Position numbers and translations under genes: made by a program. Below the pieces are notes generated by a model. It was not told the origin of the DNA. It did not search any database and saw nothing but the letters and a program-made list of their open reading frames with translations. DNA of 64,000 nucleotides from Margaritifera margaritifera (taxonomy: Eukaryota; Mollusca; Bivalvia; Unionida; Margaritiferidae), in assembly GCA_029931535.1 (NCBI GenBank), contig JAQPZY010001688.1:3217001-3281000 (forward strand), given 5' to 3'. Positions 44,095 through 64,000 of this stretch are shown piece by piece (position 1 is the stretch's first letter; every line of letters starts with the position of its first letter).

Positions 44095-46765
44095 TTCAAT
44101 CAGTGAATGACACGTACGTAAATGGACTCGCTTTATGTTATCACTACGTAACGAGAGAGAATCAGACATCTGGAAACCAATACACCCTCAATCAGTGAAT
44201 GACACGTACGTAAATGGACTGGCTTTATGTTATCACTACGTAACGAGAGAGAATCAGACATGTGGAAACCAATACACCCTCAATCAGTGAATGACACGTA
44301 CGTAAATGGGCTGGCTTTATGTTATCACTACGTAACGAGAGAGAATCAGACATCTGGAAACCAATACACCCTCAATCAGTGAATGACACGTACGTAAATG
44401 GACTGGCTTTATGTTATCACTACGTAACGAGAGAGAATCAGACATGTGGAAACCAATACACCCTCAATCAGTGAATGACACGTACGTAAATGGACTGGCT
44501 TTATGTTATCACTACGTAACGAGAGAGAATCAGACATCTGGAAACCAATACACCCTCAATCAGTGAATGACACGTACGTAAATGGACTGGCTTTATGTTA
44601 TCACTACGTAACGAGAGAGAATCAGACATCTGGAAACCAATACACCCTCAATCAGTGAATGACACGTACGTAAATGGACTGGCTTTATGTTATCACTACG
44701 TAACGAGAGAGAATCAGACATCTGGAAACCAATACACCCTCAATCAGTGAATGACACGTACGTAAATGGACTCGCTTTATGTTATCACTACGTAACGAGA
44801 GAGAATCAGACATCTGGAAACCAATACACCCTCAATCAGTGAATGACACGTACGTAAATGGACTCGCTTTATGTTATCACTACGTAATGAGAGAGAATCA
44901 GACATGTGGAAACCAATACACCCTCAATCAGTGAATGACACGTACGTAAATGGACTGGCTTTATGTTATCACTACGTAATGAGAGAGAATCAGACATCTG
45001 GAAACCAATACACCCTCAATCAGTGAATGACACGTACGTAAATGGACTGGCTTTATGTTATCACTACGTAACGACAGAGAATCAGACATCTGGAAACCAA
45101 TACACCCTCAATCAGTGAATGACACGTACGTAAATGGACTGGCTTTATGTTATCACTACGTAACGAGAGAGAATCAGACATCTGGAAACCAATACACCCT
45201 CAATCAGTGAATGACACGTACGTAAATGGACTGGCTTTATGTTATCACTACGTAACGAGAGAGAATCAGACATCTGGAAACCAATACACCCTCAATCAGT
45301 GAATGACACGTACGTAAATGGACTGGCTTTATGTTATCACTACGTAAAGAGAGAGAATCAGACATCTGGAAACCAATACACCCTCAATCAGTGAATGACA
45401 CGTACGTAAATGGACTCGCTTTATGTTATCACTACGTAACGAGAGAGAATCAGACATCTGGAAACCAATACACCCTCAATCAGTGAATGACACGTACGTA
45501 AATGGACTCGCTTTATGTTATCACTACGTAACGAGAGAGAATCAGACATCTGGAAACCAATACACCCTCAATCAGTGAATGACACGTACGTAAATGGACT
45601 GGCTTTATGTTATCACTACGTAACGAGAGAGAATCAGACATCTGGAAACCAATACACCCTCAATCAGTGAATGACACGTACGTAAATGGACTGGCTTTAT
45701 GTTATCACTACGTAACGAGAGAGAATCAGACATCTGGAAACCAATACACCCTCAATCAGTGAATGACACGTACGTAAATGGACTGGCTTTATGTTATCAC
45801 TACGTAACGAGAGAGAATCAGACATCTGGAAACCAATACACCCTCAATCAGTGAATGACACGTACGTAAATGGACTGGCTTTATGTTATCACTACGTAAC
45901 GACAGAGAATCAGACATCTGGAAACCAATACATCCTCAATCAGTGAATGACACGTACGTAAATGGTCTGGCTTTATGTTATCACTACGTAACGAGAGAGA
46001 ATCAGACATCTGGAAACCAATACACCCTCAATCAGTGAATGACACGTACGTAAATGGATTCGCTTTATGTTATCACTACGTAACGAGAGAGAATCAGACA
46101 TGTGGAAACCAATACACCCTCAATCAGTGAATGACACGTACGTAAATGGACTCGCTTTATGTTATCACTACGTAACGAGAGAGAATCAGACATCTGGAAA
46201 CCAATACACCCTCAATCAGTGAATGACACGTACGTAAATGGACTGGCTTTATGTTATCACTACGTAACGACAGAGAATCAGACATCTGGAAACCAATACA
46301 CCCTCAATCAGTGAATGACACGTACGTAAATGGACTGGCTTTATGTTATCACTACGTAACGACAGAGAATCAGACATCTGGAAACCAATACACCCTCAAT
46401 CAGTGAATGACACGTACGTAAATGGACTCGCTTTATGTTATCACTACGTAACGACAGAGAATCAGACATCTGGAAACCAATACACCCTCAATCAGTGAAT
46501 GACACGTACGTAAATGGACTGGCTTTATGTTATCACTACGTAACGAGAGAGAATCAGACATCTGGAAACCAATACACCCTCAATCAGTGAATGACACGTA
46601 CGTAAATGGACTGGCTTTATGTTATCACTACGTAACGAGAGAGAATCAGACATGTGGAAACCAATACACCCTCAATCAGTGAATGACACGTACGTAAATG
46701 GACTCGCTTTATGTTATCACTACGTAACGAGAGAGAATCAGACATGTGGAAACCAATACACCCTT
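44095..46765. repeat. 92-bp minisatellite, about 29 copies
   Basis: An exact 92-bp period is seen (for example unit joints at 44187, 44279 and 44371). Copies differ at only a few recurrent sites: 'ggactcgc/ggactggc', 'acatctgg/acatgtgg', 'acgagaga/acgacaga'. Each unit contains the palindrome 'acgtacgt' and a second 'tacgta'. One frame of each unit is stop-free for about 30 codons, but 92 is not a multiple of three, so the frame is lost in the next copy. The mosaic of shared variants indicates recent unequal exchange or gene conversion. It ends directly against the capsid-like fragment at 46749. Confidence 0.97.
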
Positions 46766-46997
46766 AACTAGCATCACTTTTGATTATCCCAGAATGAGCA
46801 TGAAAGGTGTTTTGATACTTTGCGATAAGACTAGTGAAAGTGATCCCAAAAATTTGTACTACTCGGCAATAGAAAAGATCTCAGTGATTATAGGTCTTCC
46901 AGGCATGGCTTATTCTCTGAGTTTTCAATTGAAGCAACCGTGTATAGAGGCAACTAAGCATTTCTTTGATGACCAACAAAAAGCACACAGAGATTAG
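46749..46997 (+). pseudogene. Possible Polinton-type capsid protein C-terminal fragment
   Basis: An 83-codon frame follows the last 92-bp unit. It contains 'ITFDYPRMSMKGVLIL', then 'IEKISVIIGLPGMAYS' and 'EATKHFF'. The pattern (hydrophobic strand, then K-I/V-x-V-x-I-x-G-x-P/M-x-x-x-Y-S, then an acidic aromatic end) resembles the end of the major capsid protein of Polinton/adintovirus-like elements. The gene is truncated upstream by the array. The identification rests on a short stretch and on the neighbours, so confidence is limited. Confidence 0.4.
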
Positions 46998-47163: not shown

Positions 47164-47555
47164 TTCAGATGTCCAAGTTAACATTGAAACAATCAGTTCA
47201 AATAAATTCTCATTCAGATGTCCAAGTTAACATTGAAACAATCAGTTCAAATCAGTTCTCATTCAGATGTCCAAGTTAACATTGAAACAATCAGTTCAAA
47301 TCAATTCTCATTCAGATGTCAAAGTTAACATTGAAACAATCAGTTCAAATCAGTTCTCATTCAGATGGCCAAGTTAACATTGAAACAATCAGTTCAAATC
47401 AATTCTCATTCAGATGGAAACAATCAGTTCAAATCAAATAAATTCTCATTCAGATGTCCAAGTTAACACTGAAAACAATCAGCTCAAATCAAATAAATTC
47501 TCATTCAGATGTCCAAGTTAACATTGAAAACAACCAGCTCAAATAAATTCTCATT
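47164..47555. repeat. 49-bp tandem repeat, about 8 copies
   Basis: 'cagatgtccaagttaacatt' then 'gaaacaatcagttcaaat' repeats every 49 bp (47166, 47215, 47264), with internal deletions in later copies. Its origin is unknown; it lies between the capsid-like and ATPase-like fragments. Confidence 0.9.
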
Positions 47556-47592
47556 CAGATGTGTATAAAATGTATGGGATGAACCCCATAAC

Positions 47593-47841
47593 ATGATCAT
47601 TTGTGGAGTGGCTAATTGTGGTAAAACATTGTTTGAACTAAATTTGTTAGAGACTGAATACAAAGGTGTTTTGGATCATATCATTATCATCTATGCAACT
47701 TTCCTGGAAACAGTATTTGAATTTTTGCACTTCATTCTAGATGAAATTAAATCAGAGATTGTAGATATTTTGAAACAGAACAAAAGGAACCAACTTTTGA
47801 TGAGGTTAGAGTTTCATTTTCATTTCAAGGTAATGATGTGA
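47593..47841 (+). pseudogene. Packaging-ATPase-like (A32/FtsK-HerA type) N-terminal fragment of a Polinton-like element
   Basis: An 82-codon frame begins with a Walker A P-loop 'ICGVANCGKT'. It continues 'LLETEYKGVLDHIIII', the arrangement seen at the start of genome-packaging ATPases of Polintons and related DNA viruses. Walker B and the remainder are not recognisable downstream, so the gene is truncated. It lies on the strand opposite to the polymerase relic that starts 300 bp away, a layout compatible with a Polinton. Confidence 0.6.
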
Positions 47842-48124
47842 AAATAAGGTAAAGTGTTTACATTGTCAACCCCAAACCTCTTATCATTTACATTGACAAA
47901 GCTATTTGTTCACTATGGTGCTGTAGATCTAGTGATTGCATGACCTGAGCAAATTCATTACCTGGTAATTTTCAGATTGAATAAGTATTCTTTGTACATC
48001 TCAAATCTGTAATTATTTTTTAATACACTTTTTTATTTCTTTGAAACGTTTTAGCATCTTTGTTAGTCCTGTATAAATAGAGTTTTGTCCTTAATCCATA
48101 TAACTCTCTGATTGGTGTGCCATT
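47842..48124. other. No gene seen
   Basis: Short unassigned gap between the ATPase-like and polymerase relics. Confidence 0.4.
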
Positions 48125-48620
48125 TAACTCATCTTTGAAAAGCTCTAGTAAAACCACCATAGGTAGGTTTCATTAGCTTCATCTTTGAAAAGCTCTAGTA
48201 CAGTAAAACCACCATAGGTAGGCTTCATTACTTCATTTTTGAAAAGCTCTAGTACAGTAAAACCACCATAGGTAGGCTTCATTACTTCATCTTTGAAAAT
48301 CTCTAGTACAGTAAAACCACCATAGGTAGGCTTCATTACTTCATCTTTGAAAAGCTCTAATACAGTAAAACCACCATAGGTAGGCTTCATTACTTCATCT
48401 TTGAAAAGCTCTAATACAGTAAAACCACCATAGGTAGGTTTCATTAGCTTCATCTTCGAAAAGCTCTAATACAGTAAAACCATCATAGGTAGGTTTCATT
48501 AGCTTCATCTTTGAAAAGCGCTAATACAGTAAAACCATCATAGGTAGGTTTCATTAGCTTCATCTTTGAAAAGCTCTAATACAGTAAAACCACCATAGGT
48601 AGGTTTCATTAGCTTCATCG
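48125..48620 (-). repeat. 54-bp in-frame tandem repeat from the PolB gene, about 9 copies
   Basis: 'accaccataggtagg' recurs at 48153, 48208, 48262 and 48316: 54-bp steps with 55-57-bp exceptions. Read on the minus strand each unit is the 18-residue 'MKPTYGGFTVLELFKDEV'. The K-P-x-Y-x-G-F-x-x-L-E core occupies the place after the palm segment in Polinton-type B polymerases. Because 54 is a multiple of three, six copies stay open (48145-48453). Confidence 0.85.
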
Positions 48621-49975
48621 TTTGCTTTTAGGACTGACTAGCACAAATCGCCATCTATTATTCTTCTCCTATCAAACGATATATCCATTTGGGACTTGAC
48701 AAAATTATTTTCATATGAACATATTTACTGTTGTCTTTTTCCTTAGATTTTTCACTTGAGGCACTGAATAATTCGAGAGTTTTACAAAGTCTTTTTCGAA
48801 TTCGTTTGTAGATTTGTGTATTTTAGCTATTTTAGCTCTGTGTATGATTTCAGCCAGTGTTACTGATCGAACAATACGACTTTTATCTTTTTCATTTTCC
48901 AACCCAATTGTAGGTAAAGCTTTAGGTTTCTGTAATGTGTCAGATATTTCTCCTTATTTTTCAATGTACAGGATAGTTTAAATACAGTTGGTCAAGTACT
49001 CTTAAAATCATTTGTCAAATTGTTTTGCAAGGGGGATAAATCAGTTTTGTCTGGTACAAGTTTTTCGGGTGCTAACGGGTAGTCCTTAAAACGGTTGTGT
49101 AGATGTGTTGGAGACCCACCTCTAACATCCAACCTGTGTCATTAACATCAGAAATGTTTAATAAGTTTTTATCAAGTTATCTAATTTGCTAATGAGTCTC
49201 CCAATCTTAAATGATTAACCGGCAATGTATTGGCTCATTGCCAAATCATATAAATTGTTTGTGTGCTGATACACGATATTGATCGGACTTTATCATCAGT
49301 TTCGCTGAGCTCCACATCTTGAACGTCATCTTGGGACGTTGATCTTTCAAAGTCACCATCACATTTTATTTTTATTTCATCATCAACATAATATTCGTTA
49401 TTTGCTTTGGTGTCTCTGCGTGGGGTCGTGATAATGCAACCTCTGATTCCACTCTCAATCATCAGGAACATGTTATTATCTGTCAAAAGTTCAAGTTCTA
49501 CATCTGGTACTAATCATCAGATGTGTACGAGTCCCTCAGACTTGAATAAAACTTTTCTTTGAGTAGTACAGATGTTTCGTTATATCGTTCAAAGTTATCT
49601 GTGTATTCATATAGGTAAACATCCATTCTGGCATGTCTCTAACATGTTTCAGTGTTTTTGTTAATTTGTCATCAGTTAAATTTTCAGTCATCTATTCTTA
49701 ATGACTGTTCCATGAACCTACAGGTATATACGAATCTATTACTTATTTTAACTGTTATGTCTTTGACATCCTTCATGAACCTATCCTATCTACTATGAAA
49801 TCCTTGCTGAATGAAACGTATTTTTCATCGTAGTTGGGTATGAATTTTACCTCATCATCTGGATCATTTTTACAAGCATTTTAATGAACAGATGACTGAC
49901 GTAACCTTAGAAGCTGTGAATGTATTTTGGGTATTTGAAATTCAAATTACCCTCTCTATGAGCAGGACCTCTGTG

Positions 49976-50820
49976 CTTGCCTGTTAAGTGATCGTGGTCT
50001 AGAACTTTGTCTATAATTATTTCTCTTTCACAGATATGACATGTACTTGCCTGTTAAGTGATCGTGGTCTAGTACTTTGTCATTAATTATTTCTCTCTCA
50101 CAGATATGACATGTACTTGCCTGTTAAGTGATCATGGTCTAGTACTTTGTCTTTAGATATTTTTCTCTCACATATATGACATGTACTTGCCTGTTAAGTG
50201 ATCGTGGTGTAGTACTATGTCTTTAGATATTTCTTTCTCACAGATATGACATGTACTTGCCTGTTAAGAGATCGTGGTCTAGTACTTTGTCCTAAAATAT
50301 TTATCTCTCACAGATATGACATGTACTTGCCTGTTAAGTGATCGTGGTCTAGTACTTTGTCTTCAGATATTTCTCTCTCACAGATATGACATGTACTTGC
50401 CTGTTAAGTGATCGTGGTCTAGTACTTTGTCTTGAAATATTTCTCTCTCACAGATATGACATGTACTTGCCTGTTAAGTGATCGTGATCTAGTACTTTGT
50501 CTTGAAATATTTCTCTCTCACAGATATGACATGTACTTGCCTGTTAAGTGATCGTGGTCTAGTACTTTGTCATTAATTATTTCTCTCTCACAGATATGAC
50601 ACGTACTTGCTTGTTAAGTGATCATGATCTAGTACTTTGTCTTGAAATATTTCTCTCTCACGGATATGACATGTACTTGCCTGTTAAGTGATCGTGGTCT
50701 AGTACTTTGTCTTGAAATATTTCTCTCTCACAGATATGACATGTACTTGCCTGTTAAGTGATCGTGGTCTAGTACTTCGTCTTTAAATATTTCTCTCTCA
50801 CAGATATGACATATACTTCT
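49976..50820 (-). repeat. 70-bp tandem repeat from the PolB zinc-binding block, about 12 copies
   Basis: 'cttgcctgttaagtgatcgt' recurs every 70 bp (49976, 50046, 50116, 50186 and on). On the minus strand each unit spells the CHIC...DHDHLTGK block of the polymerase (visible 'CHICERE' and 'VLDHDHLTGKY'). The period is not a multiple of three, so each copy shifts frame and the array cannot encode a repeated protein. Confidence 0.9.
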
Positions 50821-51856
50821 TGAGTTAAATTGTTTCACACCTTCATCTGTGGATACCAGAGTTTCTTTGCATTTTTCAGTTCATTGTAAACTCTTCTTGC
50901 TACACTACCCAGCCATTTATAAAACGTCTTAATACAATCAGTACGTCTGTAAACAGATTGGTCTCTAACATTTGAATTGACGTACATACAGAAATCTGAT
51001 GGTATGTGCTTAGCTGTTATTAACGCATATGATGTACTAGTTTTTGTTAGCATCATTACAATTTTGTGGTGAGTAGCTTGTAAACAAAGTACAGTATACA
51101 GTATAATGATACTTTCAAAGTCGCAATAAATGTGAATTTCAATTGATGATGATAGTTTTAAATTTGACAGTTGATTCCCTTTCAGGCCGGTTATCTAGTG
51201 AGTTGTCTACACTGTAACATAGCTTTTGTGACCTGATAATTGTTGTGGTGAATTTAAAATATTCAAGAATTGTTTTACAGATGTATTTCTTCCCATGATG
51301 TTTGCTAACTTGTGATACCATTTTTGATAAGTCTGTTACGCTAATGTAATGGTATTTATCCATTCCATCAAATAGAGTCAACATGCCTATATATTTCATA
51401 TCCTGTCACTCTAACTGACCTAATGTATGTGTTTTCAACAATTTCATACACATTTACGGAGATGTCATATTCTGGTTCAATTTTGGATGCACTGTAATGT
51501 TATAAGGCATCTTTAAAACCAATGACTGTATCTAACCAAACAGTACTTTGTATATTTATGGTCTATATCGATGATCACAAGTTCATGCAAGTTTGTTTGT
51601 TTTTCACCCATTGAGACAAATCAATATAGAAGCATCCTTTATCGAATAATACCTGTCTACGTGTTAAATATTTAATCCTGTCAAACATCCACCTAATGCT
51701 TTCATTTATTTCCTGTCCAAATTTAGTATGCAAAATGGCAAACATACGTTCAATGACATCATCCATTTCACCTCTGTTCATTAAGTTTATAGGTCTTGTT
51801 TTGTGATAAAATTCTCTGTATTCAACCTTCTTTCCATCCGGTGTGGGATGTTTCAT

Positions 51857-52469
51857 AGAGTCTGATAATGACTATCAAGCTGAACTTTTACAGAACCAAA
51901 GTGACGGATTTTCTGAATTATTTACTTTTTCAAGTATGGTTCAGCGTCATTTAAAAATTCATGCAAATCTTAATTGTTGCCACCGTAAAATCTGTACTCA
52001 TTTACGTTTCTGTTCAAAGAATCTCGAAGCCTTTATGTGATGATTCTGTTTACATTTTGCTTATTCATACGTCTCAATTCTTTACCACTTTTCAATCATA
52101 TTAAAGGAGGCTTCGATTCCTTTCTAACATGCTTTTTTGAATAGCTTCATCACATATAGAAGTCTTTGTCATTTATTTATTTACCTAGCACATTTTCAAT
52201 ATATTTTACAGCTGTAATTGTTTGTAAATATGTGTGAAAAAAGACATGTTTGAGCTTTTGTCATAAATGTTAGCAATATGCCCACTTAAGTAATATAGTC
52301 TCTGACCTTGTGGGTAGGACATAGGAAAAAAACCACTTACCACACACATAGGGAAGCCACATTTCCCTTTGCAGATCATTTTACCTATGCAGTAGTACTG
52401 TTTAGTTTCTTATGACTGGTTGTAAATCAAAATGTGGTCTAGACTCGGATCATTTTTATCATCTCCAGC
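51857..52469. other. No gene seen; upstream flank of PolB relic
   Basis: A 65-codon plus frame at 51843 is the shadow of the polymerase strand. No terminal inverted repeat of the element could be located by eye. Confidence 0.35.
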
Positions 52470-52906: not shown

Positions 52907-53149
52907 TTGTTAGATTGTTTAAAAAAGTTGTGCACTGATGAAATAAAATGTAAAGATGGACCATACTATAAATCGCATTATGCTCTTTTGAGAAAAAACC
53001 TTTCCAATAATCTGTGTAAAAAGGCATCTGTCATAGGTATAACGTTATTTTTGAACTGTGATAAATGTACCAGTGTGATTTTAAATAAACTTTCTTTGGT
53101 CTTCGTAATCCAATGGTTCTGGGTCCAAACATACATAGAATTTAAATGA
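52907..53149 (+). other. Unidentified 80-codon open frame
   Basis: Lys/Leu/Asn/Cys-rich ('LDCLKKLCTDEIKCKDG', 'CDKC'). It could be debris of the Polinton-like element or chance; no domain is recognised. Confidence 0.15.
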
Positions 53150-53256
53150 CATGCCATAAATCTATCGAGGAAGGGATCAATAGATAGATATTAGTATGTA
53201 TCAACATATGTCCGTAAAATTGCAGAGAACCAATGGTTTTCATTTTCAACAATTGG

Positions 53257-53258
<2 letters not shown>

Positions 53259-53343
<85 letters not shown>
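53259..53343. repeat. Compound (TA)n(GA)n microsatellite
   Basis: About 15 TA units followed by about 27 GA units. Confidence 0.95.
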
Positions 53344-53344
<1 letters not shown>

Positions 53345-53719
53345 ATGGGATTGGACCACAAGTTTTCACAACTTATCAATGGTCCTCTCCGTTAGAAGTG
53401 TTCTACTGTTATAGACATCTATGTACAAGAGGGGGCACGAAGGATGTAATGAAAAATATAACAAAAAAACAAAATGCCATTTCACAATAGTGAAACAATT
53501 GTTCAGCAACAAAATGGAAAAGAAAAAAAAGGAGTAGAAAGAAGAGGAAGAAGAAAGAAAAATAAATGGTTGACAGGAAAAAAAGCAGAATGACTTAGAG
53601 TATGGTATTGGTATTAATAAATAAGTTCTTTAGATTGTAGGTGACTTTAAACATATTTAAACAGTTCTTTCAAGGACTTCATGTAGAACACTCAATATAT
53701 ATAATTCTGTTGAAATATT

Positions 53720-54440
53720 TTTGAGAAGAAAAAAAAAATGTATTTTGAGAATTAAGGTTTAGGAGTTACCTTGTCATCTCTTCTCGTCCTTCACCGCTTG
53801 GAGAATTTTATTAAAAATTTTTAGGCAAGATATGTTGTTGGTGTCAGTGCGCAATAAGATTTTACTCTTTTCTTTAACCCATTTTTTGGAAAATTTCAAT
53901 TGTCAAAAAAGGGGAATTTTGAGAACTCAGCTTCTTATCGCTTCTGATAATAAACTATTTACAGGATTTTATTGAAACTTTGTATGCAAGATATGTGGTT
54001 GGTCTAGATGAACCAAAATTTACAATTTTAGCTGCCTTAATTTTTAAGACAGCTTTCTATAAAAATAAACACGTGTATATCTCAAAGGGGTATTTTGAAT
54101 ATTCAAGCCAAGGTATATCATTCCATGCTGCTGATGATGTTTTTAAACTTTGTATGCTAAATGAATGGCTGAAATAGATGAGCAGTAAGATTTTCCTTTC
54201 TTTTTTTTCTTCCATTACCTCATATTTTGAGGCAATTTTATTGACCAGTTTTTAGAAAAAGTGAGTCTTTCAAAAGTAAAGTTGTTGGAAGAAGCTTATC
54301 ATCGCTTCTCTCCAACACTGCTTAAAGGATTTTACTGAAACTTTCTAGGCTAAATTAGTGGTCAGTATAGTTACATAAAAAGGTTCCAATTTTTTCCTTT
54401 TGCTTATTTTGGGTTTAATTTCATTAAACATCGTCAAGAA
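53720..54440. repeat. Degenerate ~200-300-bp modules (family 6)
   Basis: Three modules share 'gcttatcatcgcttctc', 'caggattttattgaaacttt' and 'gcaagatatgtggttgg' variants. The 65-codon frame at 53980 lies inside one module. Confidence 0.5.
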
Positions 54441-57110
54441 ATGGGTATTTTGTGAAGTCAAATTGTTGTCAAAACACTTCTTTTCTAAACATCTGGAAGA
54501 ATCAGGATAAATCAGAAGTTATGAAGCTGTGTATCAACGTTTCATCACTTTCCAGTGAAGGTAAATTTCTGAACAGATTCTCAGAAAAGAAGTATTTTGA
54601 AAAATATTATTTGACTTACAGTGTTTTAATTACTCATACTGGACTATGTTAACAAGTTTACTGACCCCTTTGTAGGTTACGTAAGTGGTTGATGTAGATG
54701 TGCAATTAGTGACAATAAACCTGCCGGAAGTACAGGGATATGCATATCTCTGACTGCACCAATCTGCATCTAGTTTTGTAATTGTTAAGCATACGACTTG
54801 TTAAACATTGGGAAAAGTAATGATTTATTTGGCCTGATCCACCATCTATATTCATGGTCTTGTTTATAAAGCAGCTTTGTCAATTTTATTCTTCGAAAAG
54901 CACATTTTAATTTTTTAGCATCATTCAATTTTCACAAATACAGTCAATTTAGAATGTTAGAAAGAGAACATTTTCATAAGTAACTTTATCAAATCATTGT
55001 GGCCAATAAAATATTTGTGCAAATATAGCTTCTTCGGCAACTTTGCTAAAATTTGTGTTTGCTAAAATTGTTGCAATTTATAGTAATTAATAATACGTCC
55101 AATATGCATAAAATTCTTTCCAAGGTAAAGCTAATATTATAGTGACCATATCTAATACTTGTTTCTTGAAGACATATTTCAAGATGGCTAAAATCAAAGA
55201 TGTTGCATGATTTTCTCTCTTTTAAAAGCAAAATTTTAAAAGATTTTAGGTATCTGTTAGATTGGTATTAGATTCGTAACCCAACAGGACAAATTCCAGA
55301 TAAATAACATGAAACAACTGAACAGTTATTGTAACTGAACAAATTGATGTAACACATGTACAATGAAGAAAATAATGGGTTGGGCTACTTTTCCTAAAAA
55401 ATAACTCTCTAATTCTTTTTTGAATTTACATTTAAATTCCAATTGCAAAGTAGGATCTAGAACTTATTGTTTCACTGAAACTGTGTTGAATATCTTTCCA
55501 ATGAATTTATAACAAATTTCAAGTGAAGGAGTTGTGGCTTGCTTCTCAATGAAGAAATATATTACTAGACTTGAATCATTCACTGATAAAACTGAAAACA
55601 AAATCAACATTTTCTAAATGTATATGAAAGTTAGGGTAGTTGAAAATGTGAAGTTTTGTCTTCTGCTAACAAAATATCCCAGGGTCCCATAAATACTCAG
55701 TGTGTTTCTTTCTTTGGTGTAATATGCTTCATTTAAACTTCTTATTTGTTTGTTTCCTTTTTTGTTCTAAGAATTTGAGAAAAAAAGTATACATGTATGT
55801 AGTGGATAAATGTGCTTGATGACTTGTAACTTTCTATCAAGACTCCTTCAACAATTCGAAATGAATGTTTTGAGAGAAACTTCAAAAATGTTCATAAAAA
55901 TAATATCAGATGGCAAAAAGGATGAAAAGCAATAAAAGGGTTTGATAACTTTAGAGTAGGAGGGAGTAATTTGCTGTTATTACATGATTCCCATACAAGA
56001 TGCTTTTCCATTGGCAGACACGACATCATATGATATTTGATATTTTGTAATATTGCACTATCATGACATAATAATGAATTTTTTTGTGTGGAGTTGTGCA
56101 GTTGAAATAGCATTTTTACAAATCTGGAACAAGTTAAATTTCAAAATTTGGCACTAAATCATACAATAAAGGTTTATAAACCTTTGTTTCGGTGAATATG
56201 AAGTTTCATGAACCATCAAACCTATCAAATTAAGCTCTGTTTCGCGTTGGTCAATATGAGGTTTACTCATTCATAAAATTTCATATTCACCTCAATAAAG
56301 GTCAATAATTGTATGTTATACTGAACATTGTATCTATAAGTAGTATTGAACAAAATTTCTGGTTTTATGCATTTTTATTCTTATAACCTACGGAACAACA
56401 AATGAAATTATGCAATCAGTCCAGTGTAAGTTCAAAGATTTGTTCCTGAAAATTCCTATATTGTTTCTATTGGGGGGGAGGGAGGCAGTATTTTTTTGCA
56501 CCGAAGTTGGCTCTACACCCTGGTAGTAATAAAAACAGTATGTATGAGATTTCACTCCTGTTACATGATAAAATCAAAGTATCAATGATACTGATGTTGC
56601 TCTTAAAAGAGAGTATGTGTTTGTTAAACATATATCCCATCGCTTGCCTGTTTTGGCTAAGTCCATGAGGGAAAAAGTGGACCCAGGGGGCTAATGTAAG
56701 CTGCATATGTGCATTTTATCTTTTCACTTAAAGTAAGTATACATACAGCTGTATATCATTTTAAGGTGGAGATCTTAATAATTTCCAAGTAATAACCCAA
56801 ATTAATCTCAATGGGAGGGAGGAGGATACACCCTACGCAGTAAGCGTCTATATAATTAAAATTATATATATGGTTTAAGAGAATTGAAAGTAAACAAGCA
56901 ATGTATTATGCAATCAAAGCATTGAGATGCTGGCTGTTGACTAAGATCCATTCGCTTAGTGTAGGCCTGATATAGTCTGTTTTTAAAACAAACTTGCTAA
57001 ATGACAGTGTTTAAAAGGACTATCTTCAAGTTCTGTTGTTGATGTTGAATGATTAAACTGGGGAGGATCAGATTTGTTTTTTGTTCTATCATTTCCAGTC
57101 TACTAAATCT
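54441..57110. other. No gene seen
   Basis: AT-rich DNA with only short frames on either strand and no motif, RNA gene or repeat that I could support. Confidence 0.4.
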
Positions 57111-57125
57111 GCAGGAATGTGAGTT

Positions 57126-57312
57126 TGGTTTGGTTTGGTGCTTTATGCACAACAACACAAATAGGCTATTTAGTGCCGAGGCAATCGGAGTAAAGTGCCT
57201 TGCCCAAGGACACACCACGGTAGCTGACCCAGGCTGGTCTGATGGTAGGATTCTAACCCGCACCCTTTCGGTCGCGAGTCCTGCACGCTAACCACTGAGC
57301 TACCACAGCTCT
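57126..57312 (-). mobile_element. tRNA-derived SINE, full length, 12-bp target duplication
   Basis: On the minus strand the head reads 'gtagctcagtggttagcgtg' (A box), then a B-box-like 'gggttagaatcc'. Next comes the conserved central motif 'gggcaaggcactttactcc', a short body and a 'caccaaaccaaacc' tail. 'ggaatgtgagtt' at 57114-57125 and at 57313-57324 is an exact 12-bp duplication. The A and B boxes would be the internal pol III promoter. The 88- and 80-codon frames over it are shadows. Confidence 0.9.
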
Positions 57313-57324
57313 GGAATGTGAGTT

Positions 57325-58517
57325 AAATGTGGCCTTATTCAGATCAAGAGTGATCATGGGACATTTTCAAAAGGATTATAATGTTTATAAGTCATTGGTC
57401 AGTCGCTTGCCGGTCTTTGGATATTATGATTACATCAGCCATTGCTTGTTTGCTGTAAATCCTCGTTCACTGTATAGCCTTCAAGTGTTAATATCAGTTG
57501 TTTCCAAGTTATGATCCAGGAATTTAAGTACCTGGGGGCTCAGTATGGACTTGGGGGCTAATGTCACCTACATATGTGCAGTTTTTTATGCCCAGTATGT
57601 GTATATATGGTTATAGGGTGGGGATCTCAATAGTTTCCAAATTATGAGATTAAGGAATGAGATAATATCCTCCTGAATCTGTTTATATGTTTTTATGCAT
57701 TTACCAGCATTTTCATATTGAGCAATTGTGGGAAATCCCCTCAAGGACTAAAATTTGGAAAAAGTCTTTTTTTATCAAAGGGAAAAATGGTAGGATTTTC
57801 TCAAAGTTGAAGAATGCCTCAACTCTTTTTTTAAAAATAAGAACATTCTCTTAGTTTACAATTTAAAACTATTGAGATATTTGTCATCCACTTTACTAAA
57901 AAAAAATACCTCTAAGAAAAAATCCCCACATTGTGTATTACAAACATGATACTAGTATTGTCCAAGTTTAATTTGAAGGAGAAGAAATTTAGTGAAACTG
58001 GGGCCTTGTTATTCAAACTGGGGCCTTGTTATTCGAACTGGGGCCTTGTTATTCAAACTTTGGTGAGACTATTGGCATGAATTTACTTCTCTGAGTTATT
58101 AGAATCCCCCCCCCCCAAACAGAAACAAACTAAGATGTTATCCCACAACCCCACATGATAGGGTGATAAACCCACCCACACTTTGAGGTCTGAAACTAGT
58201 AGATATTTTCTTTCCAGCTTTTAATTTTCTTTCTCAGTACAATTTTCAGTGGTAATGATTGATTTTTGTTTACTTACTACTACATGCATTACTTATTCTT
58301 TTTTTTAATGATTATTTGTATTACTTACCTCTTACAAAATTTGTACTTTCATCAAAGATATTATTATGTTGTTTCACACCACCTGAATTGATTAACAAGA
58401 ACTTTTTTATCACTCTGCTACAAAGTTAATCATTTTTAAGGGCAACTACAATTTTTAAGACTTTTTCAGGGTAAGTCCTAACTTTTACAGTATGTATTTT
58501 CAAGTCATCTACTGTTT
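57325..58517. other. No gene seen; 20-bp triplicate
   Basis: Three copies of 'aaactggggccttgttattc' lie at 57995-58055, and a poly-C run near 58110. Nothing else is recognised. Confidence 0.5.
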
Positions 58518-58689
58518 GAACACTGTAGAATGACATATGAAAACATTCTTTGCCACAGTAGAACACTGTAGAATGACATATGAAAACATTCTTTGCCACA
58601 GTAGAACACTGTAGAATGACATATGAAAACATTCTTTGCCACAGTAGAACACTGTAGAATGACATATGAAAACATTCTTTGCCACAGTT
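58518..58689. repeat. 43-bp tandem repeat, 4 copies
   Basis: 'gaacactgtagaatgacata' plus 'tgaaaacattctttgccaca' repeats at 58518, 58561, 58604 and 58647. The 92-codon minus frame is its translation. Confidence 0.95.
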
Positions 58690-59797
58690 GTTCACTTCTA
58701 GCATAAGTTTGTTAGAACTTTATATATGGAACACAAATACCCAACCTACAAGCAAAATTTAAATGGATGGACATACAGACAAACATACATGGGTAATACT
58801 AAATGCATCTTGTATATTCGCTGTGGTCTTTAACAAGGTAAGAAATGAAAGTTAAATCAATTGGAAAATATTAGAGGTCATCTCAAATAACATTACATCT
58901 AAAAAAAAAGGAAAAAAAGTGACGACAGAGTCTGGACGCAGAAGTTAAAATTTGATCATTTTGCACCTCAGCCATTTTGTGTTCAACCTCACATTATTGC
59001 ATATGCCTGGGAAAGTGGTCACCCAGGTAGGTTCCTTCTGGCTTCCAGTTTTCTTTACCATTAACACCTCCTCACACTTACATCTAGGTCAGCAACAGTG
59101 AGTTGTAGAACTTAGAAGTGGCTGTACCATAGATTTAAAGTATCAACTTTGAAGTGAAAAACAATGAGCCAATATTTTTATAATTATTTTATTGTGTTCA
59201 AGTACAGTGTATGCAGCCAAAGTTTGTGTCACAGTCTAACAACTGATATGAGAACAGTTTGTAAAAGAATTAAAAACACTAACAGAAATGTGTCATCAGA
59301 TCCCTAATTTTACTCTTTCCTCATATTGTTATAGTGAGCAATCAACAATAACTTAAAAACCCTACAACAAATATACACCTGCTTCTGAAGACATAACTTT
59401 CATAAACAAATAAATTAATAACAATATGTCAAGTGCTGAGAATGTTTGTCGGTCGGTGCTTGTCAGGGTTATAGGGTCACGAAAATTGTTCGAAAAATGG
59501 GTCTGCACGAGATTCCTTTTATGAATGATGATGTAAGATGATTGCAAATAAAAGCAGAGCATTCAAGGAATGTCGTTAGATCCAAGAAATGTCAAGTATT
59601 CAAAGCACCGAGAGAGAAACATTACTATCATCATACACTGTACAAAAACCAGAATTCTAAACTACAATTTGAAGCATTTGCTAGAGGTCAAACTAGTTGG
59701 CATGATTCTTTGATTTATTGGATCTTGTTCTTTCAATGATAGTCTGCAGAAATTGCAGACTCAAAGTTGATTGGATGGTATTAACTTGTACTCATAT
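58690..59797. other. No gene seen; downstream of the kinase gene
   Basis: Intergenic AT-rich DNA 3' of the myosin light chain kinase gene. Confidence 0.4.
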
Positions 59798-59803
59798 TTT
59801 ATT
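59798..59803 (-). promoter_or_regulatory. Candidate polyadenylation signal of the kinase gene
   Basis: TTTATT on the plus strand (AATAAA on the gene strand), about 200 bp after the stop. A second one lies at 59714-59719. Confidence 0.4.
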
Positions 59804-60001
59804 GGTTGATATATTCTCATTCTCAAGCTTAAGAGTGGACCACACACCTTAGCAGGGGATCGGCACTCAAGCTTTGTTAATTAACATTTTTAGCACCATT
59901 TTCATTGCAATATGATGGCTTTATACTCAATGATAAAACAGTGAAGATTTGAACACTTAACTCATGTAAGTGAATCATGATATGTGCTTGGGGATGACTT
60001 A

Positions 60002-60802
60002 TCAAATTGCTCCATAGACAATAACCTCAGCATTGCAAATTTCTTCTCCATATTGATTTTCAGCTTTGCAAGAATATTCTCCATCATCATCCTCATTTAC
60101 ATTCTTGATGATGAGAGAATATTCACCACCATCCCCATGTTGGATAATATGACGTGGACTTTCAAGGATGATGTCATCCTCGCAGAACCAGGTGATCTTG
60201 GGTGGTGGTTCACCTGACACAGTGACATCGAATCTTATTACATCACCGGCAAAAGCTTTACAGTTCCTCATTCCTTTTATGAATATCGGAAGGCCTTGAG
60301 CATTGTTCTTAGAATTTGTTTCACCTTTATAGGATATTTCTTCATCTTTTACATTATTATTGACAGAACCTGTCATCACACTTTGAACATTTCTTAAATT
60401 ATCTACATTATTATTGTATAGATCTAAGTCAGCAGAGTCTGATATTTCTTTATTTTGTTTAGTCCTTGAGTAGGAATCAAGCAAGTCATGTCTTGTATTG
60501 TCTCTTGGCACCAATTTATCCACAGAAATGTTGCTTATATTTGGGTCTAGTTGAGTTGTTGCTGCACTTTGTCTCCATTGTGATTTGATTTCATCCACTT
60601 CCTCCGTGTCCTTAACCTTTGAAAATGAAGATGACATTTGGGAACTCACTGACATTGAGATATCTTGAGCAACTATTGTAGAATCACTGGAACAGGAACT
60701 ATTTTCCACATTGCCATCACCAAAACTACTGCTTGATTGTGGTTTTGACATTCTCTGAAGCGCTGCCATCCGACCTAAAGCACGAATAGCATTGCCCGTT
60801 TT
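60002..60802 (-). CDS. MYLK: Myosin light chain kinase, last coding exon (calmodulin-binding half, linker, Ig domain)
   Basis: The exon starts after an acceptor 'ctgcag' at 60803-60808 in phase 0 and ends at TGA (60002-60004), 266 residues. It opens with 'KTGNAIRALGR', the second half of the MLCK autoinhibitory/calmodulin-binding helix. A ~150-residue Ser/Asn/Asp-rich, probably disordered linker follows. Residues ~172-264 form an I-set Ig domain ('PIFIKGMRNC', 'PPPKITWFCEDD', 'DDGEYSCKAENQYGE'). MLCK phosphorylates the myosin regulatory light chain when Ca2+/calmodulin binds; the C-terminal Ig corresponds to the telokin-like module that contacts myosin. The usual first Ig Cys on strand B is absent, as is common for cytoplasmic Ig folds. 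A 255-codon form starting at the internal Met (60769) is possible as a separate small product but unsupported. Stretchin-Mlck is the main alternative name. Confidence 0.92.
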   Translation of the reverse strand, partial: KTGNAIRALGRMAALQRMSKPQSSSSFGDGNVENSSCSSDSTIVAQDISMSVSSQMSSSFSKVKDTEEVDEIKSQWRQSAATTQLDPNISNISVDKLVPRDNTRHDLLDSYSRTKQNKEISDSADLDLYNNNVDNLRNVQSVMTGSVNNNVKDEEISYKGETNSKNNAQGLPIFIKGMRNCKAFAGDVIRFDVTVSGEPPPKITWFCEDDIILESPRHIIQHGDGGEYSLIIKNVNEDDDGEYSCKAENQYGEEICNAEVIVYGAI

Positions 60803-61083
60803 CTGCAGGGAGAAAAGAAAGCACCATCACCAAAGCCTTAAAGCATATGTTAGGTTCCACTCACTGTATTAATACAAAGAGATAGAATTACATCTAAGGA
60901 CAGGAATGAATGAGTCTGTGGTAGGACATGCAAAGGAAATTCCATCACCTTTTTAACATTCTGAGATTGACCAGCAATGCCCCAAGCCTACTGCCCTATT
61001 TTCCACTCCAGCTAACTTGACATGCATTTTTAAAAAAAATCAATTTCAGATCTCGAATCTGTTTCTGAAGGATATGTTTGTTT

Positions 61084-61085
61084 AA

Positions 61086-61128
<43 letters not shown>

Positions 61129-61131
61129 ATA
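61084..61131. repeat. (AAAT)n microsatellite in kinase intron
   Basis: About 12 tetranucleotide units. Confidence 0.95.
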
Positions 61132-61154
61132 GCCCTTCTACACTGGTAAATATG

Positions 61155-61890
61155 AGACAATCTAAGCATTATTATGCAGCAGACATGCTAAACATACACC
61201 CATCAAATAAATCTGAATAATAAACCAGTTTCTATGCAACTATTATGACATGCTAACCATGCACCCATCAAATATATCTGAATAATGAACCAGTCTCTAT
61301 GTAACTTATATGACATGTTAACCATGTACCCATAAAATAAATCTGAATAATGAACCAGTCTCTATGCAATTGTTATGACATGCTAACCATACACCCATCA
61401 AATAAATCTGAATGAACCAGTCTCTATGCAACTGTTATTACTTGCTAACCATACACCCATCAAATAAATTTGAATAATGAACCAGTCTCTATGCAACTGT
61501 TATTACTTGCTAACCATACACCCATCAAATAAATCTGAATAATGAACCAGTCTCTATGCAACTGTTATTACTTGCTAACCATACACCCATCAAATAAATC
61601 TGAATAATGAACCAGTCTCTATGCAACTGTTATTACTTGCTAACCATACACCCATCAAATAAATCTGAATAATGAACCAGTCTCTATGCAGTTGTTATGA
61701 CATGCTAACCATACACCCATCAAATAAATCTGAATAATGAACCAGTCTCTATGCAACTGTTATTACTTGCTAACCATACACCCATCAAATAAATCTGAAT
61801 AATGAACCAGTCTCTATGCAACTGTTATTACTTGCTAACCATATACCCATCTAATAAATCTGAATAATGAACCAGTCTCTATGCAACTGT
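61155..61890. repeat. 65-bp tandem repeat in kinase intron, about 11 copies
   Basis: 'gaaccagtctctatgcaact', 'gttattacttgctaacca' and 'tacacccatcaaataaatct' repeat every 65 bp (for example 61291 and 61356). The outer copies are more diverged. Confidence 0.92.
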
Positions 61891-62286
61891 TATTGCTGTA
61901 AAACAAGTAATATCTTAAAATCAAGCAAAATTTCTGCATTATTTCAAAGTGAGTCACGGAATTTTTTTTTTTTAAAGCAGTGAGAAATTTTTTCAAGAAT
62001 GAGACAATTTCTGATATGAAACTGAAATGTGGAGTGTTAGAGTGGTAAAAGTGAGACAAGTTTTCCTAATTGTTACTTTTAGCCATATTTCAGCAGGTTT
62101 CAAGGGCATCAGAACTTGGGGACAATTATCACAAAACTGTTTGCACATTATTAATGTGGAGTGATCACTTCACTTATTAACAAAAAAGAAAAAATTCCTC
62201 TGCCCTGAATAAAAAATAATTTTACCTCAAAAAGTTTTGACACCCATGGCCTCTTTGATTAATATTATCACTGTCAGTGATTACTG

Positions 62287-62495
62287 TATATACTTGTTTT
62301 TAAGTCAAGTCCAACTGCAAACTGTTCAGACCCAGATCTGCTGTTGCATAATGTGCCAGCAGATCTGGGTCCATGCAGTTTGTTAGAAGTAATCAGTAGA
62401 ACAAACATAACAGACCCTGATCTGCTGGTGCATTATGTAATAGCAGATCAGGGTCTATGTAGTTTGCACTTGAACTTGACTTATGAGAATATATA
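62287..62495. mobile_element. Foldback MITE with two internal hairpins, in kinase intron
   Basis: The outer arms (62287-62324 and 62458-62495) are imperfect inverted repeats ('taagtcaag', 'gcaaact'). Inside are two strong hairpins: 62329-62371 ('gacccagatctgctg' with its inverse) and 62412-62456 ('agaccctgatctgct' with its inverse). Non-coding, and the strongest secondary-structure signal in the intron. Confidence 0.8.
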
Positions 62496-62499
62496 GAAA

Positions 62500-63365
62500 T
62501 CAGGATTTTCAGGACAGTTTATTCTTGTTAACCTGACTTCGACTTATCTGATTATTTCTTTAATGCAATGACATGACTGGTAACTATTATTATTATTACA
62601 GGGGAGATCACTCCACCTTCTCAAACAAAATTTTATTTAGATTTTTTAGACAATAACATAATATAAACATAACATGAAAGTCAAGTACATACTGGTAATT
62701 TTGAGAAAGTCAGATGAGAAATGTTGAAGTTTTGAACATTTGAATTTGTACATGTCATACAGTGACAATCATCTAGGTGTTGGACATCAGGACCAAAACC
62801 TCAAAAATAAATTTCCACTGTGACTGCCAATATTTAATCATTTACAACAAGAAAGTAACAGTTCATGTATTGGTTAGGGGAGTACTGGAATTAATTTGTA
62901 AAATGTTAAAGTTTAGCCAACAGGTGAGCAGAGTCCGCCATACATCAATTATAACTGAATGCATTGATTTTATAGCTGACTTTGTCTACCACTTTTTGGA
63001 AGTTAATGGGTATTTAGTGAAAGTATAACTTTGAAGTCCTTAAAGATTTCTTTTCAGTATTTCAACAGTTTCTAAATTTGAATTGACAAGTATCTATTTA
63101 TTCATCTCCCATGCAGTAAACCTAAGATTTCAAAACATGCATTGCAGAATACTAACACTGTACTTTTTAAGTTTCAGTTCAAATTCTTGGTGTAGGTTAT
63201 TTTGTTGTAAATATTTTTCAATTGAAAAAAATAAGCATACTTGCAGAGTATATATTATATTCTTGTGCTATTCAATTTGTTTCCCCCAAAATTATTAGCT
63301 TCTCTTTTTAAATATTGAAAGATTTTTTTTCCCAGAAAGGCTTGTTGTGTATTTTATATACCTAC
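62500..63365. other. Intronic sequence of the kinase gene
   Basis: No further exon is seen; the plus-strand frames at 62777 and 63083 are antisense to the intron and have no domain. Confidence 0.5.
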
Positions 63366-63489
63366 CTGCCATTTTCTGCGGGCCATGAATCGCCTCAGAT
63401 TCTTTGTGCTTATCCTCATTGTTTTACGATCAGCTTCATCCCGGGCCAGCCAGCTGTGTTCTAAACACTGAGATACTGTCATTCTCTTT
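63366..63489 (-). CDS. MYLK: Myosin light chain kinase, penultimate exon (end of kinase domain, start of calmodulin-binding helix)
   Basis: A 124-base exon between acceptor 'gcccacag' (complement of 63490-63497) and donor 'gtaggt' (complement of 63360-63365). It encodes one split codon plus 41 residues. 'KRMTVSQCLEHSWLARD' is the end of the protein kinase domain (subdomain XI), and 'RRFMARRKWQ' is the basic start of the MLCK calmodulin-binding helix, continued by 'KTGNAIRALGR' in the next exon. It is followed on the gene strand by a 2563-bp intron (60803-63365) filled with minisatellite and MITE sequence. The rest of the kinase lies beyond the window. Together with the Ig-bearing last exon this fixes the identity as a smooth-muscle-type MLCK. 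Confidence 0.92.
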
Positions 63490-63598
63490 CTGTGGGCAGC
63501 AAAAATATACCATTAAAATTGCACTAAGATGATAATCAAAGAGATATTTATTTCATTCCTTGACTTTCATTTACTCTTTTCATTTCAGGCCAAACAAT

Positions 63599-64000
63599 GG
63601 TAATCTTAATACTGTGAGGCAGTAGTTTTATTGGTAATCTTAATACTGTGAGGCAGTATTTTTATTGGTAATCTTAATACTAACAGGCAGTATTTTTATT
63701 GGTAATCTTAATACTGTGAGGCAGTAGTTTTACTGGTAATCTTAATACTAAGAGGCAGTAGTTTTATTGGTAATCTTAATACTGTGAGGCAGTAATTTTA
63801 TTGGTAATCTTAATACTAAGAGGCAGTAGTTTTATTGGTAATCTTAATACTATCAGGCAGTAGTTTTATTGGTAATCTTAATACTAAGAGGCAGTAGTTT
63901 TATTGGTAATCTTAATACTGTGAGGCAGTAGTTTTATTGGTAATCTTAATACTGTGAGGCAGTAGTTTTATTGGTGATCTTAATACTGTGAGGCAGTAGT
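63599..64000. repeat. 34-bp tandem repeat in kinase intron, ~12 copies, continues past window edge
   Basis: 'ggtaatcttaatactgtgag' plus 'gcagtagttttatt' repeats every 34 bp (63601, 63635 and on), with 'ctaag' and 'ctaac' variants. Confidence 0.95.

Follow-up and report, generated by a model that had tools for sequence, protein, structure and literature searches.

How do minisatellites arise from unique DNA, and how did two of them come to lie within a single dead gene? This question is raised by a stretch of 64,000 nucleotides from the bivalve Margaritifera margaritifera (host genome of 2.45 Gb; the whole stretch, which is part of contig C1477, is hereafter called the window), where the minus-strand relic of a predicted type-B DNA polymerase gene contains two tandem arrays built from segments of that gene. 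Such origins are difficult to trace, since the sequence from which an array started has usually disappeared. In this case, a large family of dead gene copies keeps the state that preceded the arrays; because the relatives preserve it many times, the edges of the units, the choice of unit, the order of events and the recurrence of arrays can be read directly. We consider it probable that the relic belongs to a decayed, old copy of an element in which minisatellites arose locally from parts of the element that had been present once, by duplication of the slippage type. The element would be Polinton- or adintovirus-like, the polymerase being the only one of its genes established here. The features on which the argument depends are the following.

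48030..52388, minus strand: broken relic of the predicted type-B DNA polymerase gene, with its 5' end at the high coordinate; recognized by ordered profile matches and by relatives at 68-77% DNA identity
49972..50818, minus strand: array of 70 base pairs (bp), 12.1 copies with 93% matches (Tandem Repeats Finder, period 70); its source is the CHIC..DHDHLTG zinc-type segment
48129..48624, minus strand: 55/54-bp array, 9.2 copies with 95% matches (Tandem Repeats Finder, period 54, consensus 55); KPxYxGF fused to FKDE
48565..48577, minus strand: deletion junction in the first 55-bp unit, with about 70 residues including DTDS gone; repeated in each of the nine units

In-place growth of the arrays

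Relatives of the relic were collected by DNA searches with its upstream part (58 matches, 40 of 2,478 candidates scored) and with its downstream part (81 matches, 40 of 2,881 candidates scored). The best match at each other place found in the upstream-part search is 68-77% identical to the relic and, because of this level of identity, we regard the relatives as old copies.

The 70-bp unit reads CHIC..DHDHLTGK, and the final copy continues directly into HRGPAHREGNLNF. The corresponding site is free of an array in all 29 other family loci returned: a single unit was recovered from 27 of these relatives with one query and from the remaining two, L047 and L059, with another, and three loci (L036, L039 and L045) have diverged or lost part of the sequence at this site. 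When two 70-bp units were searched against the genome, with 40 of 293 candidates scored, 39 places outside the window emerged, each matching about one unit, and the one longer match turned out, on inspection, to be a single copy. Because the 29 relatives are array-free and the matches elsewhere in the genome cover about one unit, the 70-bp array is, as far as seen, private to the relic and expanded in place. Its units show a mean pairwise difference of 7.2%, and the relation between unit difference and distance is not significant (permutation p 0.21).

The edges of the 70-bp unit were compared in the 26 scorable array-free copies (three of the 29 are gapped), with other 8-base words from the same stretches as the control. 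The two edges share, on average, 4.7 of 8 bases compared to 2.2 in the control; at least 5 bases are shared in 13 of the 26 copies compared to 3.3% in the control, and in L052 all 8 are shared. These edges fit duplication between short direct repeats as envisaged in the Haber-Louis model.

The units of the second array are 55, 55, 55, 55, 54, 54, 54 and 54 bp long and are followed by a shortened last unit that lacks about eight bases and could, but need not, represent the incomplete unit of the Taylor-Breden model. Every unit spans a deletion that joins KPxYxGF to FKDELNG, with the loss of the catalytic DTDS segment. The stretch from LELSK to FKDELNG, which has no counterpart in the relic, is kept in five relatives, with TDTDSLC in L062 and L079 and decayed forms in L063, L064 and L076. 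In 36 of 120 public polymerase fragments, the DTDS motif follows KPxYxGF after 32-34 residues; one of the 120, P0048, has KDELGG about 85 residues after KP (about 15 residues in the relic). Sequence just past the array aligns with P0048 at KDEL, with 9 of 20 residues identical (E 1e-4). In L061, which is the downstream portion of the top match from the upstream search, this place carries a different deletion. The junction lies within each of the nine units, and therefore the deletion preceded the amplification of the 55/54-bp array or occurred in the same event.

Among 31 stretches fetched regardless of arrays, the KPxYxGF segment is kept in 16, always once: in 6 of the 20 downstream stretches, the remaining 14 having no visible segment, and in 10 of the 11 further short stretches, one being without it. 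Searching the genome with three 54-bp units, of which 3 candidates were scored, led to one further locus, on contig C359, which is itself a polymerase copy.

Two more arrays of the same element, both on its left side relative to the polymerase, have to be considered together with these.

44096..46764, plus strand: 92-bp array, 29 copies with 98% matches, in the left gene of the element; one unit in relatives
47164..47562, plus strand: 49-bp array, 8.2 copies with 84% matches; single copy in L061, L062 and L063

The 92-bp array aligns to one place in L080 and in L061, both of which retain both flanks. Because the 92- and 49-bp units are also single in the relatives, four arrays (70-, 55/54-, 92- and 49-bp) have thus grown in place within one element copy. 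With a mean pairwise unit difference of 1.7% in the 92-bp array versus 7.2% in the 70-bp array, the arrays are probably of different age, allowing for homogenization, and their births were probably separate.

As for the mechanism, we infer that replication slippage or template switching would first have produced a head-to-tail duplicate of a segment, the event taking place between a pair of short direct repeats at the 70-bp site, and that the arrays would then have been enlarged by further slippage or unequal exchange. The 55/54-bp array would have arisen with the catalytic segment already deleted, or else lost in the same event.

Identity of the polymerase relic

The relic extends from about 52.39 to 48.03 kilobases (kb) on the minus strand, with numerous stops and frame shifts, and the similarity of the relatives to it stops near position 52388. 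A profile of the 120 public polymerase-B fragments was run against the 2,882 stop-to-stop pieces of at least 15 residues from all six reading frames of the window. The relic is the sole matching locus in the window at E<=0.05, with seven minus-strand pieces that follow the order of the gene. These match, successively, profile positions 40-83, 90-107, 137-174, 185-222 and 239-275 (best E for relic pieces 3e-10), followed by the first 55-bp unit at 309-329 (E 0.03) and by a five-unit piece at about 314-331, which reaches E 7e-6 as a whole, its single units being weak at 1.5 to 12 each. The next match elsewhere in the window has an E of 0.64, and five shuffled controls produced no profile match at E<=0.05.

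The family assignment follows a chain of similarities. An open 177-residue piece of the relative L076 leads to one public protein, P0001 (E 7e-12), which in turn matches 7,930 proteins at E<=0.001 among 7,999 scored; PF03175 (DNA_pol_B_2) is annotated on 9 of the 120 listed matches of P0001. Through the succession of L076, P0001, the 120-fragment profile and the relic, the gene is predicted to have encoded a type-B polymerase of the DNA_pol_B_2 kind. Speaking against this assignment, Pfam gives no polymerase match on the relic pieces, on five open pieces of relatives or on P0001 itself. A PHROG scan of the relic pieces returned no polymerase match either, and a tblastn comparison of these pieces with 30 loci of another polymerase family of the genome gave none at E<=0.01. 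This second polymerase-B family (L001-L030 and further matches) is far better preserved and has numerous long open frames.

The 120-fragment profile does not cover the zinc-type segment, whose putative identity rests on the reading CHIC..DHDHLTGK..HRGPAH, on the relatives and on a sub-threshold match to Endonuclease VII (PF02945, Endonuclease_7), which the CHIC..DHDHLTG segment of L043 resembles at E 0.0016, below the cut-off. Two pattern scans of viral contigs for the DHDHLTG block found nothing, and a protein search with the zinc segment gave no candidate.

The original prediction, made from the letters of the window, was that two arrays had grown, each in its collinear position, from segments of one dead minus-strand polymerase gene. 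The ordered profile matches and Tandem Repeats Finder agree with the presence of two such arrays inside the predicted type-B relic, and their expansion in place is confirmed by the single-copy or array-free state of the relatives at both sites. The supposed 54-bp in-frame unit does come from KPxYxGF but is a 55/54-bp mix and a composite that runs across the DTDS deletion. Two outcomes named at the time as refuting did not occur: the polymerase profile matches the 54/55-bp units (the five-unit piece), and a spread of these satellites without polymerase flanks was not found, given that the 39 places (40 of 293 candidates scored) hold about one 70-bp unit and the 54-bp query (3 candidates scored) leads to a polymerase copy. 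A single observation leans the opposite way, namely, a 39-bp array in L092 that resembles the KPxYxGF motif and came from the weaker matches of a protein search with KPxYxGF units; its one visible flank lacks polymerase sequence, and this locus was not accepted as a polymerase array.

Recurrence at KPxYxGF and the cause of the arrays

In-place KPxYxGF arrays with polymerase flanks are present in at least three copies, the relic (54/55 bp, nine units), L090 on C359 and L091 on C227. L090 (G000:C359:2858700-2860000, positions 257-1034) is a polymerase copy with 19 KPxYxGF copies spaced by 48, 39 (16 times) and 48 bp; the array is in frame and open across 385 residues, and DTDSLC comes after it. 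The outer spacings of 48 bp and inner ones of 39 bp look like the outcome of a core that expanded again after its unit had been shortened. The third case, L091 (G000:C227:724250-724950, positions 73-621), was reached by a protein search with six KPxYxGF units (150 of 1,653 candidates scored) and consists of 14.1 copies of 39 bp with 96% matches and polymerase sequence on both sides. Because the units and the flanks differ, we take the three arrays to be separate births; the searches that yielded the C359 and C227 arrays were aimed at the KPxYxGF motif and hence no rate is derivable from them. In L093 (G000:C1122:2125050-2125650), a 33-bp array (ITIYDGFTMLE) that resembles the KPxYxGF segment fills all 601 bases and is a candidate only. 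L094, with its flanks outside the sequence seen, was not accepted as a polymerase array; L092, L093 and L094 are the three places inspected alongside L091.

To place these arrays against a background, arrays with a period of at least 20 and at least 2.5 copies were counted. A random sample of eight stretches contains 3 arrays in 32 kb (0.94 per 10 kb), the 29 relatives contain 13 in 113.6 kb (1.14 per 10 kb, found in 10 of the 29 loci), and the 20 downstream stretches contain 4 in 34 kb (1.18 per 10 kb). The 30 loci of the other polymerase family have 2 arrays in 107 kb (0.19 per 10 kb); among these 30 loci, such an array (37 bp, 5.1 copies) is limited to L019 and L020, about 7 kb apart. Within the window, 7 arrays are located at 1-44 kb (1.59 per 10 kb), 6 at 44-53 kb, the element region (6.67 per 10 kb), and 4 at 53-64 kb (3.64 per 10 kb). 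The dense arrays beyond the element, at 53000-64000, include one of 65 bp and 11 copies at 61186-61894 and one of 34 bp and 11.9 copies at 63598-64000.

Polymerase-derived arrays of at least 2.5 copies occur in 4 of the 29 relatives, all away from the array sites of the relic; they are listed here along with an array at the adjacent ATPase.

L043: 42 bp, 7.0 copies; relic equivalent 49884-49922
L049: 28 bp, 3.2 copies; same segment as in its close relative L043
L057: 51 bp, 3.1 copies; relic equivalent 49801-49855
L058: 68 bp, 3.0 copies; relic equivalent 51403-51468
L042: 56 bp, 3.9 copies, at the ATPase; relic equivalent 47568-47617

Two-copy cases are L050 and L070; in the latter (G000:C1371:1460168-1461868, positions 429-605 in polymerase orientation), the DTDS segment itself is duplicated (89 bp, 2.0 copies). 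The remaining arrays of the relatives are outside the polymerase or unplaced. The relatives thus get arrays at about the ordinary rate and elsewhere in the gene, and the relic copy is an outlier in an array-rich stretch. Accordingly, the proposal that the instability is specific to this element stands only in part. The family rate is close to the random one, the arrays of the relatives are in other places, and the 70-bp site carries an array in none of the 29; by contrast, arrays did recur at the same polymerase position, KPxYxGF having been independently amplified in two further copies. Repeated slippage, which that proposal also named, is retained in our reading of the locus as the presumed process.

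Part of the explanation could lie in the region, with the chromosome stretch rather than the element favoring the growth of arrays. We give this possibility, which is compatible with birth of the arrays on the spot, somewhat less than an even chance: the array density is highest in the element region and still elevated at 53-64 kb relative to 1-44 kb, the random sample and the family copies (about 1.1 per 10 kb), but the region was chosen after the fact, and the Poisson probability of six arrays in 9 kb, 2.5e-4 to 6.8e-4, is 2.5e-4 at its lowest before any correction. A cause confined to the KPxYxGF segment, such as a hairpin that stalls replication and makes the segment prone to array formation, seems rather unlikely to us. 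The Lys-Pro codons (AAACC, AAGCC) are complementary to the Gly-Phe codons (GGTTT, GGCTT), the relic 54/55-bp unit folds better than 198 of 200 shuffles, and three in-place arrays with polymerase flanks have formed at this segment (relic, C359 and C227). The longest perfect stems measure 5, 6 and 6 in the copies with arrays, compared to 3 to 5 in those 16 that keep the segment without an array (L102, which lacks it and has a stem of 7 elsewhere, was left out), but a stem of 5 is also found in 6 of these 16. Furthermore, the fold z-scores are unremarkable (-0.4 for C359 and -1.1 to 0.9 for six array-free copies, C227 being outside the test), the motif-aimed searches that found C359 and C227 provide no rate, and the candidate 33-bp array of L093 has no Lys-Pro. 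A general hairpin cause was rejected: four of the five window units tested show no fold signal, folding no better than shuffles, and array and array-free copies overlap. We suggest only tentatively, considering it improbable on the whole, that the KPxYxGF codons of virus-like type-B polymerases are a local DNA weakness, perhaps owing to the Lys-Pro/Gly-Phe inverted repeat, and a recurrent birthplace of minisatellites across independent copies; if true, this would link a protein motif to DNA fragility.

The two other alternatives appear far less plausible. Mobile elements that contain arrays abound in an oyster (PMC7492417), and the arrays could similarly be central repeats of a transposable element, carried to this place with it in the manner of Helentron-type HINE. 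We consider this highly improbable: no second locus of the 70-bp array came up (40 of 293 candidates scored), the 54/55-bp array was found only at the relic (3 candidates scored), these arrays are flanked by polymerase sequence, and, within the scored candidates, neither is a mobile array with fixed flanks in many copies. It is just as doubtful that selection keeps the arrays as coding repeats. Open frames do run through the 39/48-bp array of L090 (385 residues) and the 42-bp array of L043 (seven copies, 196 residues), and L057 has a 51-bp unit with one frame open. In the relic, however, unit lengths of 55 and 70 bp occur, there are many stops, and the counts of variation at the three codon positions of the 70-bp units (16, 7 and 10) show no excess at the third.

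Several observations weigh against birth on the spot by slippage-type duplication, the explanation that we nevertheless prefer. The edges of the 54-bp unit match at 9 of 13 bases only, and the overlap at the 92-bp array is about one base (29 x 92 + 1 = 2669); because the edge repeats are weak at these two sites, a common seeding mechanism for all arrays is not established. Two arrays in the 4 kb of the polymerase are hardly beyond the background (Poisson 0.055 to 0.077), and the random sample that contributes to this background is small, with 3 arrays in 32 kb. The family copies are related to one another, so that counts across them are not independent, and the genome searches scored a part of their candidates. 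Finally, the recurrence at KPxYxGF suggests that sites may be unequal, which plain random slippage would not predict.

Tandem repeats derived from mobile elements, coding parts included, are known (PMC3389668, PMC9659126, PMC7492417), and models of minisatellite birth have been proposed (PMC3599147). In PMC3389668, which describes the Haber-Louis and Taylor-Breden models, 7,276 human tandem repeat arrays derived from transposable elements are reported, of which 300 have direct repeats of 5-20 bp on their flanks. Like these human minisatellites, including those from Alu, the arrays of the relic expanded where their source, a fragment of an old mobile element, was located, at the 70-bp site with short direct repeats at the edges; they consist of head-to-tail units of tens of bases, with the single-copy progenitor seen in relatives. 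Unlike them, the source is a virus-like polymerase, one copy holds four arrays, a deletion junction lies within one of the units, and three copies have the same segment arrayed. The satellites from LINE-1 ORF2 and CR1 (PMC9659126) likewise take their unit from a coding segment but form families, whereas the searches located the 70- and 54/55-bp arrays at a single locus apiece. Helentron HINE of Crassostrea gigas (PMC7492417) also ties satellite-like arrays to mobile DNA; its array moves with the element, in contrast to the arrays searched for here, which are private to one copy. Judging by titles and abstract openings, no arrays inside Polinton-type polymerase genes were found in the literature searched. 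We file the present case under a known kind of process, with informative relatives and one unexplained recurrence as its distinctive features.

Other arrays and genes of the element

Beyond the four arrays discussed above, the element region includes the following features.

46728..46997, plus strand: open piece of the left gene, with the reading FDYPRMSMKGVLIL; similar frame in L061
47051..47123, plus strand: 26-bp array, 2.8 copies (Tandem Repeats Finder)
47569..47841, plus strand: ATPase-like open piece of the A32 type that contains a P-loop (GVANCGKT) and is oriented tail to tail with the polymerase; related place in L042
52469..52871, no strand assigned: 31-bp array, 12.9 copies, about 80 bases past the end of similarity with the relatives

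The open piece at 46728-46997 has neither a Pfam nor a PHROG match; it could perhaps belong to a capsid gene. The ATPase-like piece at 47569-47841 matches Pox_A32 with an E of 0.012, below the curated cut-off. The 31-bp array has no counterpart in the relatives compared and may mark the edge of the element. Within the 92-bp array of the left gene, position 34 of the unit shows a variant that comes back in units 1, 8, 15, 22 and 29 and in units 9, 16 and 23 (also 26), a pattern hinting at block-wise copying of seven units.

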